A stretch of 32,663 bases of DNA from Planctomycetota bacterium. GTDB lineage: Bacteria; Planctomycetota; MHYJ01; JACPRB01. The stretch lies in contig DATLZA010000151.1 in the NCBI GenBank assembly GCA_035574235.1, positions 1 to 32,663 on the forward strand, read 5' to 3'. Each line of letters begins with the position of its first letter. The first letter of the stretch is position 1. Position numbers and translations under genes: made by a program. Positions 132 to 14,860 of this stretch are shown here, piece after piece. The notes beneath the pieces are model-generated. The model was given only the letters and a program-made list of their open reading frames with translations, ran no database searches and was not told the origin of the DNA.

Positions 132-1022
132 CTACTCGGCCAGGCGCGCCAGCTTCCGGGCCAGCGACCGCGCGGCCGCGCGGATCGCGGAGACGTTGCG
201 GCCCGGGAAGAACCGCCGGTACGCCAGAAGCTCGTCCGCCTTCTCGTTCCAGTGGTTGAGGATGTACGCCCAGTCCGAAAGCACCCGGTCCAGATCCTCC
301 GGCGGCTTGATCTTGCGGCCCTTGAGCATCTTGCGGGCCGTCTCGTCCACGCGCTCGGGCTCGATCAGCCGCCCGCGGACGACGTCGCGCCGGATCTTCT
401 CGCGCACCTCGGGGTCGGGGATGGAACGGACCTTCTTGGCGAGGGCGCTGATCTTGTGGACGGGCAGCTTGTGCTCCACGGCCGTGGCGACCATCTCCTT
501 GCCGCCGAACCGGTGCGCCTCCAGCGCCGTGCGGCCGGCGATCTTGCGGTCCCGGATGGCGCGCTGGACGGGCGCCTCCATCTCGAGCATGGACAGAAGG
601 TCGCGGATCCACGCCTCCGAGAGGCCCACGTAGCGCGACACGCGCCGCAGGGCCTCCGCCTCCGGGATCTTCTGCGAGACGAGGAGCCGCACCATGTTGT
701 GGAGGCCCTCGGCCTTTTCGATGTCGCTGAGCCCCTCGCGCTGGAAGTTTTCGGCCAGGGACTGAAGCGCCATCTCCTCGTCGGAAAGCTCCTCGACCTC
801 GACTTCGACCTTGTCCCAGCCGAGGTGCTTGAGCGCGGCCAGGCGGCGGTGGCCGTAGCAGAGCTCTACCTTGTCCCCTCTCATGCGGCCGCGCAGCGAA
901 CCCGGCCACAGGCCCGAGTGGCGGATCTCCTCGGCGAGCGCGCGGATGGACGCGGGGTCCATCTTCTTTCGGGCCTGGTACGGATTCGGCAGGACGTTCT
1001 TGATCGGAACGACGACTTTCAT
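132..1022 (-). CDS. ParB/RepB/Spo0J-family partition protein
   Basis: A 296-residue protein of the ParB family, whose members are DNA-binding CTPase clamps that load at centromere-like parS sites. Visible motifs are NPYQARKKMDP (residues 13-23, the start of the ParB N domain), GHRRLAALKHLG (57-68, corresponding to the GERRxxA box that binds nucleotide), ENFQREGLSDIEKAEGL (91-107, ParB box) and a helix-turn-helix around 124-145 (RRVSRYVGLSEAWIRDLL). The C-terminal half is charged and does not clearly resemble the usual dimerisation domain. I chose the ATG at 1022 because GGAGGAGGGG lies just upstream; an in-frame extension to 1079 would run back through the promoter. No parA adjoins it, so it may be an orphan ParB or Noc-like factor. 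It sits divergent from FHA-dnaA and about 2 kb from the oriC candidate, a usual place for parB. I found no TGTTTCACGTGAAACA-type parS site in the window. Confidence 0.88.
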   Translation of the reverse strand: MKVVVPIKNVLPNPYQARKKMDPASIRALAEEIRHSGLWPGSLRGRMRGDKVELCYGHRRLAALKHLGWDKVEVEVEELSDEEMALQSLAENFQREGLSDIEKAEGLHNMVRLLVSQKIPEAEALRRVSRYVGLSEAWIRDLLSMLEMEAPVQRAIRDRKIAGRTALEAHRFGGKEMVATAVEHKLPVHKISALAKKVRSIPDPEVREKIRRDVVRGRLIEPERVDETARKMLKGRKIKPPEDLDRVLSDWAYILNHWNEKADELLAYRRFFPGRNVSAIRAAARSLARKLARLAE

Positions 1023-1069
1023 GGAAACCCCTCCTCCCAGCGGCGGAACGGCGCGACGCGCCTGCAGGC

Positions 1070-1098
1070 GTTCTACCACACGCGGCTCGAGCTGTCAA
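1070..1098 (-). promoter_or_regulatory. Promoter of the parB-like gene
   Basis: On the minus strand, TTGACA (1098-1093) and TAGAAC (1075-1070) are separated by 17 bp. This is a perfect -35 and a 4/6 -10, and it leaves a leader of about 40 nt with a strong GGAGG-type ribosome site before the ATG at 1022. Confidence 0.65.
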
Positions 1099-1120
1099 AT
1101 TCGCGCGGGCGCCGCGCGGC

Positions 1121-1148
1121 TTGACAGTCGCGGATCGCGGGCTAGAAT
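1121..1148 (+). promoter_or_regulatory. Promoter of the FHA-dnaA operon
   Basis: TTGACA (1121-1126) and TAGAAT (1143-1148) are spaced 16 bp apart. The leader to the FHA start is about 100 nt. The -35 mirrors that of the divergent parB promoter: CTGTCAA (1092-1098) and TTGACAG (1121-1127) form an inverted repeat around a GC-rich imperfect palindrome (1103-1117). Confidence 0.7.
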
Positions 1149-1253
1149 ACTCGAGCTTTCGACGGCTGTGACGCGCGCGCGGGGGAGCGCGCGCGGCCCG
1201 CGGGTGGGGGAAGGCCACCGATCTCCGGCGACCGAGGGAGGGATCGTCCCGCC

Positions 1254-1760
1254 ATGGCGCGCTTGATCCTGGAGTCGGGAGGGGAGCGAAAGGAGATCCG
1301 GATCCGGGGCGCCGTGACCATCGGCCGCGCGCCCTCGGCGGACGTCTCGATCGATGACCGGACGCTCTCCCGGGAACACACGCGCGTCTACGGCGAGAAC
1401 GGCCGCTACTTCGTCCGCGACCTCGAAAGCAAGAACGGCACGTACCTCAACGGCGAACTCATCCGCCGGCCGGAGGCGCTCAAGCCGGGCGACCGCATCC
1501 GGATCGGACCGGCCACCTTCGTCTTCGCCGCCGATCCGGACGATCCTCCGCCGCCTTCCGCTCCCGTTCCGGCGACCGAGGGCCGCCCCTCCGCCGCTCC
1601 GGCGCCCGCTCCGCGGCCCCGGCCCCGCGCGGAATCCGGAGCGGCGGCCGACGCCGCCGCGGCGATCCTGGCCCGGATCGCGCTTTTCGGAATCGCCGCC
1701 GCCACCGCGTGGTTCTCCAAGGATTTCTTCGCCCGGCTCCTGGAGCGGATCCCGACATGA
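1254..1760 (+). CDS. FHA-domain protein with C-terminal membrane anchor
   Basis: A 168-residue protein. Residues 1-93 are a forkhead-associated domain, a phosphothreonine-peptide binding module. The conserved positions are all present: GR at 24-25, SREH at 39-42, KNGT at 60-63 and the following N66. Residues 94-130 are a Pro/Ala-rich linker. Residues about 134-154 (AAAAILARIALFGIAAATAW) form one hydrophobic helix close to the C-terminus, so the protein should be tail-anchored with the FHA domain in the cytoplasm. A GGGAGGG purine tract lies about 14 nt before the ATG. Its TGA overlaps the dnaA ATG (ATGA, 1757-1760), so it is translationally coupled to the replication initiator. The family fit is firm. 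The partner is unknown; a Ser/Thr-kinase substrate is the natural inference, but no kinase gene is in the window. Confidence 0.9.
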   Translation: MARLILESGGERKEIRIRGAVTIGRAPSADVSIDDRTLSREHTRVYGENGRYFVRDLESKNGTYLNGELIRRPEALKPGDRIRIGPATFVFAADPDDPPPPSAPVPATEGRPSAAPAPAPRPRPRAESGAAADAAAAILARIALFGIAAATAWFSKDFFARLLERIPT

Positions 1761-3130
1761 CTTCCCTCGACCTTAAGGACAAGGAGCGGATCCTCTCGTT
1801 CCTCGAGTCCCGGCTCGAGGGGAAGATCTATGACACCTGGTGCCGCTCTCTCCAAATCGAGGCCGTCAACGAGCGCCAGGTGCGGGTGCCGGCGGCCAAC
1901 CCCTTCTACCGCGACTGGCTTGAGAAGCTCCTGCGCAAGCCCCTCGAGGACGCCTTCCAGCACCTCTTCGGACAGGTTCCGGAAATCGTCTTCCAGGTGG
2001 CGCCCTCCTTCGCGCCGCCCGACCCGCGACCGGCGGAGCCTTCGGGCTGGACGAAATCCGCCGGGCCGGCCCCGGACCGCGTCGAGCCGCCGCGGCCGCC
2101 GGCCCCCGATTTCCCCTTCAATCCCGCCTACACCTTCGAGAACTTCATCGAGGGACCGTCGAACCGCATGGCCTACGCGGCCGCCGTGGCCGTGAGCGAG
2201 AACCCCGGAACGCTGTACAACCCCCTCTTCATCCACGGAGGCGTCGGACTCGGCAAGACGCATCTCCTCCAGGCGATCTGCCACGCGATCCTCATGCGCA
2301 ACGCGGCGGCGAAGGTCGTGTACCTCTCGTGCGAAGACTTCGTCAACGGGTACATCTACGCGCTTCAGAAACGGGAGCTTGAAGCCTTCCGCTCGCGCTA
2401 CCGGAACGCCGACGTGCTCGTCGTGGACGACATCCATTTCCTGGCCGACAAAGAGGGCAGCCAGGAGGAGTTCTTCCACACCTTCAACGCGCTGCACCTT
2501 GGAGGCAAGCAGGTGATCCTCTCGAGCGACCAGCCGGCCCAGGACATCCGCGCCCTCAAGCAGCAGCTGCTCTCCCGCTTCCGCTCCGGCTTCGAGGTCA
2601 AGATCATGGCCCCGACGTACGAGACCCGCCTGGCCATCCTGCGCCGGAAGGCAGACACCCGGGCGAAAGACGTGCCCCAGGACGTGCTCGGATACATCGC
2701 GTCGGCCGTGGAAACGAATATCCGGGAGCTGGAGGGAGCGCTCACCAAGGTCCTCGGGTACGCCTCCCTCTCCAAACGCCCCGTCACGGTGGACCTGGCC
2801 AAGGAAGTGCTGCGCGACACGACGCCCCCGGCGGCCTCGCCCTTGTCGGTCGCCGAGATCCAGCAGGTCGTCGCCCGCTACTTCAACCGCAAGGTTTCGG
2901 ACCTCCAGTCCCGCCGCTGGACGAAATCGACATCCCTCGTCCGCCAGATCTGCATCTATCTCTGCCGGAAGCTTACGACCGCGTCTCTGGAAGAACTGGG
3001 CAACCAGTTCGGCGGCAAGGACCATACCACGATGCTCTACTCCGTGCGCAAGGTCGAAAGACTCATCGCGCACGACGCCGCCGTCCGCGCCGACGTAGAT
3101 CGGCTCACGCGCGAGCTTCGCCGCCCATAA
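1757..3130 (+). CDS. dnaA: Chromosomal replication initiator DnaA
   Basis: A 457-residue AAA+ ATPase that binds DnaA boxes at oriC and opens the duplex; the length is typical. Domain I spans residues 1-80 and a Pro-rich domain II spans about 85-120. Domain III starts near TFENFIEGPSNRMAYAAA, with Walker A GGVGLGKTH (161-169), Walker B VLVVDDIHF (220-228), sensor 1 around VILSSDQP, box VII LLSRFRSGF with its arginine-finger region, and sensor 2 NIRELEGAL (321-329). Domain IV carries the signature FGGKDHTTMLYSVRK (418-432). The ATG at 1757 overlaps the stop of the FHA gene; an upstream in-frame start at 1709 would lie inside that gene and adds residues unlike DnaA. The AT-rich gap immediately downstream is the oriC candidate. 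None of the usual neighbours (dnaN, recF, gyrB, rpmH) is present. Confidence 0.98.
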   Translation: MTSLDLKDKERILSFLESRLEGKIYDTWCRSLQIEAVNERQVRVPAANPFYRDWLEKLLRKPLEDAFQHLFGQVPEIVFQVAPSFAPPDPRPAEPSGWTKSAGPAPDRVEPPRPPAPDFPFNPAYTFENFIEGPSNRMAYAAAVAVSENPGTLYNPLFIHGGVGLGKTHLLQAICHAILMRNAAAKVVYLSCEDFVNGYIYALQKRELEAFRSRYRNADVLVVDDIHFLADKEGSQEEFFHTFNALHLGGKQVILSSDQPAQDIRALKQQLLSRFRSGFEVKIMAPTYETRLAILRRKADTRAKDVPQDVLGYIASAVETNIRELEGALTKVLGYASLSKRPVTVDLAKEVLRDTTPPAASPLSVAEIQQVVARYFNRKVSDLQSRRWTKSTSLVRQICIYLCRKLTTASLEELGNQFGGKDHTTMLYSVRKVERLIAHDAAVRADVDRLTRELRRP

Positions 3131-3375
3131 TACCGAGCGCCACCACCCGCCCAAGTCGGCCCGCCGCGCGATCGCTTTAATGTTAGCTGAGTGTTCGATC
3201 TAACAATCCAATCCACCGCCGGAAAGGATTGTGGAAACTCAACATCCTCTACCAAACCGCTTCCGAGAATATCCAACACCTTCCCAACCCCATCCACACT
3301 TTACCCACGATCCTACACAGTACGCGGACGGTAAAAGTCCTTGCTTACAAATCACTTACTAAACCCATTAACAAA

Positions 3376-3384
3376 ATATCCACA
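3376..3384 (+). promoter_or_regulatory. Best DnaA-box match
   Basis: ATATCCACA differs from the TTATCCACA consensus only at the first base. It is embedded in the most AT-rich part of the oriC candidate and lies 2 bp before a perfect 12-bp palindrome. Confidence 0.6.
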
Positions 3385-3386
3385 AA

Positions 3387-3408
3387 AGAGACGTCTCTGA
3401 AGAAGAAG
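3387..3408 (+). repeat. Palindrome followed by AAG triplet ladder in the oriC candidate
   Basis: AGAGACGTCTCT (3387-3398) is a perfect palindrome. After one base it is followed by three AAG triplets (3400-3408). A DnaA box followed by tandem A/G-type triplets resembles the DnaA-trio unwinding element known from Bacillus oriC. Functional equivalence is inferred. Confidence 0.4.
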
Positions 3409-3457
3409 ATGGGGTCTTTAGAGATAAGAAGTCTTTCTTACGTAAGGGAGAGACACG

Positions 3458-4213
3458 CTACGGCTTGCAGCGTTTGCAGGGTGTCTTTCCGGCGTCACGC
3501 GCGTGCCACTTGCTCTCGTAGTAGATCCGGTCATCCTCCGAGAGCTTTTGCGCCAGGCTGCAATACGAGAGATGGAAGTACCGAGTATGGGCCGCCGAGA
3601 TGTACTCGGCGAGGGCGCCGCGGGACATGTATTCATCGATCGGAAGTTCGAAGGCCTTGAGGGCTTCATCCTCCCGCGCGAAGATCTGGATGAAGGCGGT
3701 AAGACCGAGGCGCTGCAGGACGAACCGGGCATCGGGGGTAAGACCGAAGAACTTCATGTCCCCGCCTCGGGCGCGAGCCTCGTCGACGTAGGCGAGCAGG
3801 CCGGACACTCCCGAGCTGTCGAGGAAGACGAGCCGCGTACAGTCGAGGGCGATGCGGGCGAACCCCCGGTTCATCAGCCGCTCGAAGACCCGGGTGACGG
3901 CATCGAGCTTGCTCCCGTCGAGCCGCCCATCCAGGACGACGATCGCGACCCCGCCGGCGTCGCGAAGATCCAGTCGGAGAACGCGCTTCTCGCCCCGGCC
4001 GATGCGCTGCTCCTCGAGAATCTCGCGGATCGTGGCGCGGTCGAGAACCTTGCGTTCGACGAGAATGTCCCCGAGTCGCGGCGCGCTGCGGCGGCGCTCG
4101 AGCGCGGCCCGCTGGACGGCAAGAGCCTCGTCGATGACCTCGGGGGGCGCGAGGTTCTTCCGGACGAGAAGCTCCCCGATCTTGTGGTACGTCTCACGGA
4201 CTTTGCGCGGCAT
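3458..4213 (-). CDS. MshEN-like / STAS / Ada-like zinc-site fusion protein
   Basis: A 251-residue protein in three parts. Residues 10-70 hold two copies of a helical pattern (KIGELLVRKNLAPPEVIDEALAVQ and LGDILVERKVLDRATIREILEEQ) like the MshEN / type II secretion ATPase N-domain. Residues about 76-190 are a STAS (anti-anti-sigma) domain with LDSSG at 131-135, where Ser is the normal phosphorylation target. Residues 212-251 resemble the Ada metal-binding module: HxxxC (H214, C218), an A..G..PC spacing, and CKRC (C246, C249). The ATG at 4213 has GGAG 7 nt upstream. Its own promoter is visible. It probably acts in the cytoplasm as a phospho-switch in a partner-switching pathway, but no anti-sigma kinase is nearby. 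The domain calls are good; the combination is unusual. Confidence 0.85.
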   Translation of the reverse strand: MPRKVRETYHKIGELLVRKNLAPPEVIDEALAVQRAALERRRSAPRLGDILVERKVLDRATIREILEEQRIGRGEKRVLRLDLRDAGGVAIVVLDGRLDGSKLDAVTRVFERLMNRGFARIALDCTRLVFLDSSGVSGLLAYVDEARARGGDMKFFGLTPDARFVLQRLGLTAFIQIFAREDEALKAFELPIDEYMSRGALAEYISAAHTRYFHLSYCSLAQKLSEDDRIYYESKWHARDAGKTPCKRCKP

Positions 4214-4287: not shown

Positions 4288-6436
4288 TCAGTCCCGTTCA
4301 AGTTCGACCAGCCGGGTCTGGCCGTAGAGAAGCGTGGTGAGCGTCAGGCGTCGCGCCCCAGCGGCCAGCTCCCGGAAGTGCGCGAGGTCGCGCACCGCCA
4401 CGTCGTTCACCCGGAGGATCACCGACAGGGGCGCGAGTTTGGCGACATCCGCGCGGCTCCCGGACTCCACCCGCGCGACGACCACGCCTCCGGTTCCGGC
4501 GTCGAGCTTGTAGAAGTACCGCACCTCGTAGGTGAGCTCCTTGACGGTCAGGCCGAGCGCGTCGTCGCGGTAGCGCTCGGCGGTTTCGTAGTCCGTCGGC
4601 GCGTACTCCAGCTTCAGCTCCACGCGGCGCTTTTCGCGGCCGCGGAGAAACTCGAGAGTCACCTTGCGGTCGGGTCCGATTTCCGTCAGAAGCGACGTCA
4701 GGTAGTTCCGCGCCGGCCGCCACGGCGGCGCGGTCTCCCGTCCCGGCAGGCGCGCGAACCGCGCGAAGGGCGGCGCGAAGCGGTCGGGCTCGGCCACCAG
4801 GTCGCGCGGCACGGCATCGCCCTCCGGCTGGACGGCCAGGAGAACGTCCTCGACCCGCAGCCCGGCGCGCTCCGCGGGAGAGCCGGGGTAGATATCGGTG
4901 ACGACGAGCCCGCGGCGCCCGTCGTTGGTGAGATCCCGCGCGCGGATCCCGAGCGCGTCGGCCAGCTCCCGGGTCATTTCCTGGAATTCGACGCCCAGCC
5001 AGACGCGCCGCCCGGCCTCGCGGCGGGACATGGGCACGGCCCGGGGGTCGAAGTGCGGCGCCGGTTCGGCGAGCACGCCCGCGATTTCGGAGAAGAACAG
5101 GAGTCGGCGCAGGTGCTCCGCCGTGAATCGCCCGCGGACGTCCGGACCGCCGCCCGCTTCGTCGAAATCCTCCGCAGGCCTGTCCACCGTGGAGCAGCCG
5201 ATGACGCGCCCCTCGAGGTCCAGGAGAAACGATCCCGGGCGGATGCGGCGGCGCGGCTGGAGCCGCGGGGCGCCGCCGAGCCCCCGCTCGAGGCGGAAGA
5301 GGCGATTGGGTTCCAGCCGATAGCGGGCGTGCCCGAAGCGGTCCTCGACGGCCGCGGCGAAAAAGAGACGCCCGGGCGGGGGCGGGAGGGCGTCGCGGGC
5401 GACGCCGGGACGGGTGGCCAGCCCGTCGGCGCGCGCGAGGAATCCCCCGAACTCCCGGAATGACCCGAGGAACGCGACAGGGTACGAGCGGCCGCCTTCG
5501 GAGACACGGAGCTCCTCGATCTTCCGGACGGCGTCCCGCGGGAGGTCCTCCGGAACGAAAAGCGTGCCGCGCTCGTCGAGCGTGACGCCGAAGAAGACGG
5601 CCCGCCCGGAACGGGTCTCGTCGGACATCGCGGAGCGGCGATCCGGCGGAGCCTCCAGGCGGAACGAGGCCTCGATGCGTTTGATGACCGAGGGAAGCGC
5701 CTGGCGCAGGGCGTCGGCCCGGCGTTCCAGGTCTTCGACGCGCGGGTCGGCCAGGAGGGCGGGACCGAGGAACGAGCTGCGGCCGTCCGGCCGGACCCAC
5801 AGGTAGTGATCAAGGGCGACGCCGACGGGCGTGCCGTGGCGGTCGGAGACGACGGAGCCGGGCCGCAGCAGGTCGATGCAGAACCATCCTTCTGTGGGGA
5901 CGAGGGGCGCGTTCGTCTGGATGTAGGGGCTGACGTTCAGGTGCCAGCGTCCGTCCACGCGTTCGGCGAAGGTGACGTGGAAGCGCTCGCCGAGAGCGGG
6001 GGCGCGCCAGGGCCCGAACGTCAGGGGCGTCAGGGGCCGGGGATCGGCGGGGCGGAGCAGGAGGAAGTCATGGTCCAGCCCGACGCCGGCGGGCCGGGCG
6101 GAGAAGCGGGTCCCTGTGGCGTCCACGGCGTCGATGCGCACGAGGTCCCCTTCGCGCAGGCCGCGGTCGTGGGTCAGGATGAGGTCCGGGGCGACGGCGA
6201 CGCCCCAGGCTTCCAGGGGGAGTCCCTGCTCGGCGGCCTCGTAGGCGGCGCGGAGCTCGGGGTCGGGCGGATCCTCCTCGAGCTCCGCTTTCTCGATGCG
6301 GGTCCGTTTGCGGACGGCGATTTCGAGGGCGACAAAGGAGGGGTGGACGGCGGCGTGGGCGCGGCGGACGGCCTCTTCCTCGTCCGGGGCGGGTCCGGCC
6401 GCCTGCGCGGCCAGCGCGAGGAGGGCGGCGAGCGCG

Positions 6437-6444
<8 letters not shown>
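4288..6444 (-). CDS. Tandem degenerate HtrA-like (pseudoprotease) protein with two PDZ domains
   Basis: A 718-residue exported protein with a signal peptide at 1-17 (ALAALLALAAQAAG). Residues about 30-215 follow the trypsin/HtrA fold order: GVAVAPDLILTHD (81-93), GLDHDFLLLRP (122-132), RPGSVVSDRHGTPVGVA (194-210). Compared with the intact neighbour, the catalytic GNSGG is replaced by GSVVS. Residues about 280-420 repeat the pattern: GVTLDERGTLFVPEDL (286-301), FLGSFREFGGFLARAD, RPGSFLLDLEGRVIG (402-416). Here the His, Asp and Ser positions all look substituted. Two PDZ domains follow (about 480-545 with GLVVTDIYPGSPAERAGL, and about 630-700). The ATG at 6444 overlaps the upstream htrA stop by 8 nt (6437-6444), so expression is coupled. 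It is probably a periplasmic scaffold or regulatory partner of the active protease. The alignment was made by eye, so residue equivalences are inferred. Confidence 0.75.
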
Positions 6445-7780
<1,336 letters not shown>

Positions 7781-7788
7781 TCTCATCG

Positions 7789-13758: not shown

Positions 13759-14860
13759 ATGAAAGACGAGGTCATCTCTCAGCTGCGCTCCCTCCTGGCC
13801 CGCCTCGAGTCCCTCCGGGACTCTCTTTGAGATCGACCGCAAGGAAGCCCGCGTCCGCGAGATCGAAGCCTTGATGTCCGCGTCCGGCTTCTGGAACCGG
13901 CCGGACGAAGCCCGCGGCGTGGTCGCCGAGCTCAAGTCCGTCAAGGGCGTCGTCGAATCCTACCGTTCCCTTCGCCGGGACCTCGAGGACGAAATCGGCC
14001 TGCTCGAGCTGTGCGACGAGGCCAAGGACCACGCCCACGTGGCCCAGACCGCCGAAAAGGCGCGCGACTACCAGCGGCGCGTCGAGGCGGTCGAGGTGCA
14101 GGCGCTTTTCACCGGCAAGAACGACGCGCGGGACGTCTACCTCTCGATCCACGCGGGGGCCGGGGGCGTGGACGCGATGGACTGGGCGCAGATGCTGGAA
14201 CGGATGTACCTGCGGTGGCTCCAGCGGCGCGGCTACGAGGCGGAGGTGATCGACGAGCAGGAAGGCGAGGAAGCGGGCCTCAAGCGCGCGGTCATCGAGG
14301 TCCGCGGGCCGTACGCCTTCGGGTACCTCAAGAGCGAAATCGGCGTCCACCGCCTGGTGCGGCTGTCCCCGTTCGACGCCAACCACCGCCGCCAGACGAG
14401 CTTCGCCTCGGTGGATGTCGTGCCGCAGTACGACGACATCGAGGTGGAGATCAAGGAGGGCGATCTCAAGATCGACACCTTCTCCGCGGGCGGTCCCGGC
14501 GGCCAGCACGTCAACAAGACCCAGAGCGCCGTGCGGATCACGCACCTGCCCACGGGCGTCGTCGTCTCCTGCCAGAGTCAGCGGTCGCAGCTTCTGAACC
14601 GGAAGTACGCCCTCCGGGCGCTCGCCTCCAAGCTCCACCAGCTCGAGGAGGCCAAGCGCGAGGCGGAGTTCGCCAAGATGTACGGCGAGAAGGGGGAGAT
14701 CGCCTTCGGCAACCAGATCCGGTCCTACGTGATGCAGCCCTACACGCTCGTCAAGGACCACCGCACCGAATACGAGACCGGCAACATTCAGGCGGTGCTC
14801 GACGGGGAGATCGATCCCTTCATCGAGGCCTTCCTGCGCTGGAAGGGGCGGAAGTATTAA
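13759..14860 (+). CDS. prfB: Peptide chain release factor 2 (programmed +1 frameshift)
   Basis: RF2 of 366 residues, which releases peptides at UGA and UAA codons. It is read as 23 codons from the ATG at 13759 to CTT (13825-13827), then a +1 slip over TGA and continuation from GAG at 13829 to TAA 14858-14860. The joined protein runs ...RDSL-EIDRKEAR... and matches RF2 in length and order. The stop-recognition SPF motif lies in RLSPFDANHRRQTSF and the catalytic GGQ falls at about residues 247-249 (GGPGGQHVNKT), almost the E. coli position. The in-frame TGA at codon 24 is the usual autoregulatory device: low RF2 favours the frameshift. The normal AGGGGG stimulator before the slip site is weak here. 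The gene ends in a TTAA shared with metF on the other strand. Confidence 0.96.
13825..13831 (+). promoter_or_regulatory. prfB programmed frameshift site
   Basis: The heptamer CTTTGAG is a slippery CTT codon followed by an in-frame TGA. The classic site is CTTTGAC preceded a few bases earlier by AGGGGG. Here the following base is G and the only upstream anti-SD complement is a short GGGA (13817-13820). Confidence 0.88.

Follow-up and report, generated by a model that had tools for sequence, protein, structure and literature searches.

In one family of the Planctomycetota (f1), the gene for a small protein with an FHA domain and a predicted C-terminal membrane anchor lies immediately upstream of dnaA, the two genes sharing an ATGA stop/start overlap behind what is presumed to be a single promoter. 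This layout is real and conserved within the family and, as far as we searched the open literature, has not been described before: no published FHA-dnaA operon or FHA-DnaA pair was found in open-access sources, in line with a preliminary description of this DNA, which knew of no established system of this kind. That description suggested that Ser/Thr phosphorylation acts through the FHA protein on the initiation of replication or on the membrane placement of DnaA or its partners. We instead favor, at slightly better than even probability, the reading that it is a tail-anchored phosphothreonine (pThr) adaptor of the Ser/Thr kinase network and that its gene came to lead the dnaA operon within this lineage. 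The window analyzed here, 32,663 nucleotides long, is the whole of contig C151 from an assembly (G000) that totals 4.06 Mb over 203 contigs.

The FHA gene (positions 1254 to 1760, + strand) begins with ATG and encodes a protein of 168 amino acids, identified through its PF00498 match, an AF2 model, and its relatives, that consists from N to C terminus of an FHA domain, a Pro/Ala-rich linker, and a hydrophobic helix. The domain (residues 21 to 85; 1314 to 1508, + strand) matched PF00498 with an E value of 7e-21 and 74.9 bits against a gathering cut-off of 20.7, and its pThr-pocket signature (GR / SREH / NGT..NG), read from the profile match and alignment, is complete (G24-R25, S39-R40-x-H42, N61-G62-T63, and N66-G67), bearing out the intact pocket of the preliminary description. 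Most pocket positions were invariant or nearly so in an alignment of 17 related proteins; in G002 and G007, the N of NGT is replaced by C. AF2 produced a poor model from the single sequence, and the 17-row alignment was used instead, giving a confident FHA fold (a beta-sandwich with a pLDDT of 95 to 98) followed by a low-confidence linker. The nearest PDB folds found with Foldseek were the FHA domains of GarA, OdhI, and Bdellovibrio DgcB, and the closest PDB sequences were those of GarA and OdhI. The best NCBIfam match was FhaB/FipA (NF049868), at 69.9 bits, below the 125-bit equivalog cut-off. From these features, we infer that the domain binds pThr.

The AF2 model continues as a helix over residues 130 to 164 (1641 to 1745, + strand; block mean pLDDT of 90 to 98), which, together with hydropathy, predicts a tail anchor. 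Hydrophobicity is modest in the window protein itself, where the best 19-mer has a KD value of 1.91, and equal or stronger in its relatives (1.93 to 3.01), so that the membrane helix previously proposed is well supported by homology. Sixteen residues remain on the C-terminal side of the best 19-mer, a layout shared by 16 relatives, and the charge flanking the predicted anchor is mostly positive on the N-terminal side of the helix. The N terminus would be cytoplasmic.

The downstream gene (1757 to 3130, + strand) encodes a 457-amino-acid protein that matched the DnaA equivalog TIGR00362 at 488 versus 344 bits, with domains I, III, and IV present (PF11638, PF00308, and PF08299); the closest named DnaA belongs to “Planctomycetota bacterium GW928_bin.9.” The same genome also encodes, at another location (G000:C70:20994-21944; L045), a further DnaA-like protein with 35% identity. 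The ATGA overlap occupies positions 1757 to 1760 (+ strand). A motif scan of both strands from 1000 to 3500 found a sole sigma-70-like site (0.1 expected), TTGACA-16-TAGAAT at 1121 to 1148 (+ strand), upstream of the FHA gene, so the earlier account of an overlap under one promoter stands. Ahead of the FHA gene, each of the four family genomes with dnaA (G000, G001, G002, and G003) has a promoter-like site whose spacer is 16 nt long, and by the same rule there is none in any of them between the start of the FHA gene and that of dnaA. Because both the overlap and the promoter geometry recur in four genera, the arrangement is more than chance. The two genes would be cotranscribed from the single presumed promoter, and the levels of both proteins would therefore rise and fall together; a shared dosage is likely, and we infer equal, coupled synthesis. 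Two further kinds of control were considered and rejected. A leader hairpin or Shine-Dalgarno-sequestering stem 5' of the FHA gene seemed conserved by eye between G000 and G001 and gave folding z-scores of about 0, and the leader had no credible match in Rfam. DnaA autoregulation was sought as boxes in the FHA promoter, of which there were none in G000, G001, or G003 and one weak example in G002.

The family sample comprised five genomes, with dnaA recovered in four, and in each of these four, which belong to four genera, the FHA gene overlaps dnaA by an identical ATGA. The adjacency is thus not restricted to one genome, an outcome that the preliminary description had named as refuting its reading. 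The fifth genome (G004), which is 64% complete, yielded no dnaA and no relative of the FHA protein at full length. Identity to the window proteins across the family is 41 to 57% for the FHA protein and 52 to 71% for DnaA. The genes upstream of the pair vary: they are ParB-like in G000 and G001, sigma factor-like in G003, and kinase-like in G002. Two kinase-like genes flank the FHA-dnaA-STAS block of G002 (L050:4301-5158, - strand, and L050:8349-10913, + strand) and look like pseudokinases because HGR replaces the HRD of active kinases.

Persistence of the pair in four genera despite changed upstream neighbors, with the promoter kept before the FHA gene and not before dnaA, argues against mere operon inertia, in which the two genes, unrelated in function, would share a promoter through a historical rearrangement near the origin and overlap through compaction. 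We regard that explanation as possible but doubtful. ATGA overlaps are common in operons, and the variety of gene contexts across the class is in keeping with inertia, as is an overlap of the same kind of protein gene with a cysteine desulfurase gene in family f6. There, in four genomes, the order is FHA-TM > cysteine desulfurase > dnaA > dnaN, and the first two genes overlap by 4 nt (GTGA or TTGA); a 4-nt overlap is therefore not specific to DnaA.

Beyond f1, we compared 60 dnaA regions belonging to other families within the phylum (55 of which included 2 kb or more upstream of the gene) and 80 named genomes from many phyla, and none of these had a same-strand FHA gene upstream of dnaA; in two, there was an opposite-strand FHA match, which in one case was borderline. 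The FHA-dnaA arrangement is family limited. A profile search showed, however, that most genomes of the class hold one full-length protein of the same plan, with an FHA domain from residue 2 or 3, a variable linker, one hydrophobic helix, and a tail of 5 to 32 amino acids. The genes for these proteins neighbor nifS in f4 and f6, tatA in f7 and f8, and parA-parB in G011; in three f7/f8 genomes (G013, G017, and G019; L283, L284, and L285), tatA is followed directly by the tail-anchored FHA gene. Since genes for similar proteins in sister families lie next to, or overlap, genes with no relation to dnaA, the ATGA overlap is no argument for control of initiation. Proteins of this plan are neither confined to nor always found with dnaA, as a dedicated DnaA regulator should be, and on this point the preliminary description was not supported. 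In a tree built from 103 FHA columns, the 17 proteins grouped nearly but not strictly together: they needed two label changes, versus 14.7 in shuffles, and a single clade was borderline rejected (p-AU of 0.047); a protein of similar build also occurs in another class (L006). For these two reasons, we describe the class-wide proteins as sharing an architecture, their orthology being unproven.

Dedicated control of initiation would require a kinase to phosphorylate DnaA, the FHA protein to hold phospho-DnaA at the membrane, and the operon to set the stoichiometry. We consider this unlikely, even with strict ATGA adjacency in 4/4 f1 genomes. A disordered linker is the usual location of the pThr bound by an FHA domain; the DnaA linkers of the four f1 proteins contain 4, 2, 5, and 1 Ser/Thr residues (the single one in G002), none of them aligned, which leaves the linker with no visible conserved docking site, and a conserved pThr docking motif there was rejected on this four-protein comparison. 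A candidate phosphosite, T392, lies instead in the DNA-binding domain, within a K-S-T-S motif; each of the four f1 DnaAs has Thr at this position, and the 14 other DnaAs of the class have Val, Ile, or Leu. The pattern may nevertheless be due to chance, as T392 is just one of eight family-specific DnaA residues, and we treat it as a test target, not as evidence of phospho-DnaA binding. In favor of dedicated control, the phosphoproteins listed in a review include DnaA of Streptomyces (PMC4754617); against it, similar FHA proteins elsewhere in the class do not adjoin dnaA.

Downstream of dnaA is a relatively AT-rich gap (3131 to 3457, no strand assigned; GC 0.48) with DnaA-box-like sites at 3230 (- strand), 3290, 3301, and 3376. 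These four boxes, counted with up to two mismatches, compare with 0.9 expected and a maximum of five in 300 shuffles, a suggestive result, and the gap is probably oriC. Facing dnaA across it is a convergent gene (3458 to 4213, - strand), retained in all four f1 genomes with dnaA, for a protein with an MshEN-like domain, a STAS domain, and a C-terminal CxxC; the MshEN-like c-di-GMP motif scored 38.1 bits with NF053729 against a cut-off of 38. It is a second signaling protein fixed at the probable origin in these genomes. By eye, from gene names, dnaN is not the next gene after dnaA in f1 (window positions 3131 to 3457; L048-L050), and most of the class has the order dnaA-dnaN(-gyrB). Next come two adjacent HtrA-like protease/PDZ genes (4291 to 7786, - strand), the first with a good PDZ match and a weak trypsin-like domain; a pair resembling them in sequence also lies 3' of the STAS gene in G001. 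Farther along, prfB (13760 to 14860, + strand) carries, at 13826 to 13832, CTT-TGA-G, the classic site of programmed +1 frameshifting. On the other side of the FHA gene is the gene for a divergent ParB/Noc-like protein (132 to 1022, - strand), present at this position in G000 and G001 only, whose product has GHRR in place of GERR; a canonical ParB is encoded elsewhere (G000:C139).

Wherever dnaA and the tail-anchored FHA gene were on one contig (f1, f3, f6, and f7), they were within 30 kb of each other, a hint, noted after the fact and for few genomes, that the FHA gene resides near the origin. One might imagine a general origin-region role, in which the protein is an adaptor for positioning or segregating the chromosome at the membrane (Par/oriC) and dnaA is one neighbor among several. 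The FHA gene is directly downstream of parA-parB in G011 (L282:3737-6790, about 29 kb from dnaA) and opposite the ParB-like gene in G000 and G001, and it is 20 to 29 kb from dnaA in G006 and G011. The neighborhoods with tatA and nifS are at odds with such a role, the sample is small and was judged after the fact, and most genomes are too fragmented to inform it; we hold this role to be very improbable. A wider version, in which the protein is a class-wide origin-region membrane tether linking kinase signaling to initiation and segregation, with DnaA as its partner in f1 and ParAB in G011 and the dnaA operon as its tightest form, seems distinctly unlikely.

Among known systems, FhaB/FipA (Rv0019c) of mycobacteria resembles the window protein as a small single-FHA protein and its best NCBIfam match (~70 bits). 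It is membrane linked, and its gene belongs to the origin-proximal pknA-pknB-pstP-rodA-pbpA cluster, a kinase setting near oriC. Its membrane segment is, however, N terminal and its gene is outside the dnaA operon, whereas the window protein falls far below the equivalog cut-off and has no kinase/phosphatase cluster at its locus. GarA and OdhI, closest in fold and sequence, are soluble proteins with an N-terminal phospho-tail and no membrane anchor that regulate oxoglutarate metabolism. An FHA domain with a C-terminal tail anchor is found in SLMAP (and yeast Far9/Vps64); SLMAP binds the autophosphorylated linker of MST2 (PMC5663475; PMC2712456). As a eukaryotic STRIPAK scaffold with coiled coils, SLMAP offers an analogy only, homology being limited to the FHA domain. 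It is the nearest analogue in working plan, the nearest by sequence being the FHA domains of GarA, OdhI, and FhaB.

In the adaptor reading that we prefer, the cytoplasmic FHA domain would bind pThr on a Ser/Thr kinase or kinase substrate and the C-terminal helix would keep the bound partner at the inner membrane. The protein would be a member, by architecture, of a class-wide group usually present as one full-length copy per genome. In the class, the gene often lies near the origin; in the f1 lineage, it would have come to head the dnaA operon, one sigma-70-type promoter then serving both genes. We think that the main partner is a kinase network protein rather than DnaA; we rate direct control of DnaA as less likely, and although direct regulation of initiation is possible, we found nothing that specifically supports it. 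The pocket and helix, about 50 Pkinase matches above the cut-off in the window's genome, and the variable contexts in the class support the adaptor reading, as do the retention of the pair while upstream genes differ, its absence from the phylum regions and named genomes, and the lack of a conserved Ser/Thr in the DnaA linker. On the other side, descent of the f1 protein from a common ancestor with the class group is unproven, survival of the linkage down to ~52% DnaA identity could reflect a specific bond with DnaA, and proximity to dnaA in four families is a hint that the protein has a role connected with the origin.

In such kinase-rich bacteria, Ser/Thr kinases number in the dozens and FHA proteins are numerous, yet very few of their targets are known. 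The conserved operon joining a membrane FHA adaptor to the replication initiator is a concrete, testable entry point to the question of whether Hanks-type kinase signaling touches replication timing, and if the link should prove to be shared expression only, it would caution against inferring function from 4-nt overlaps.
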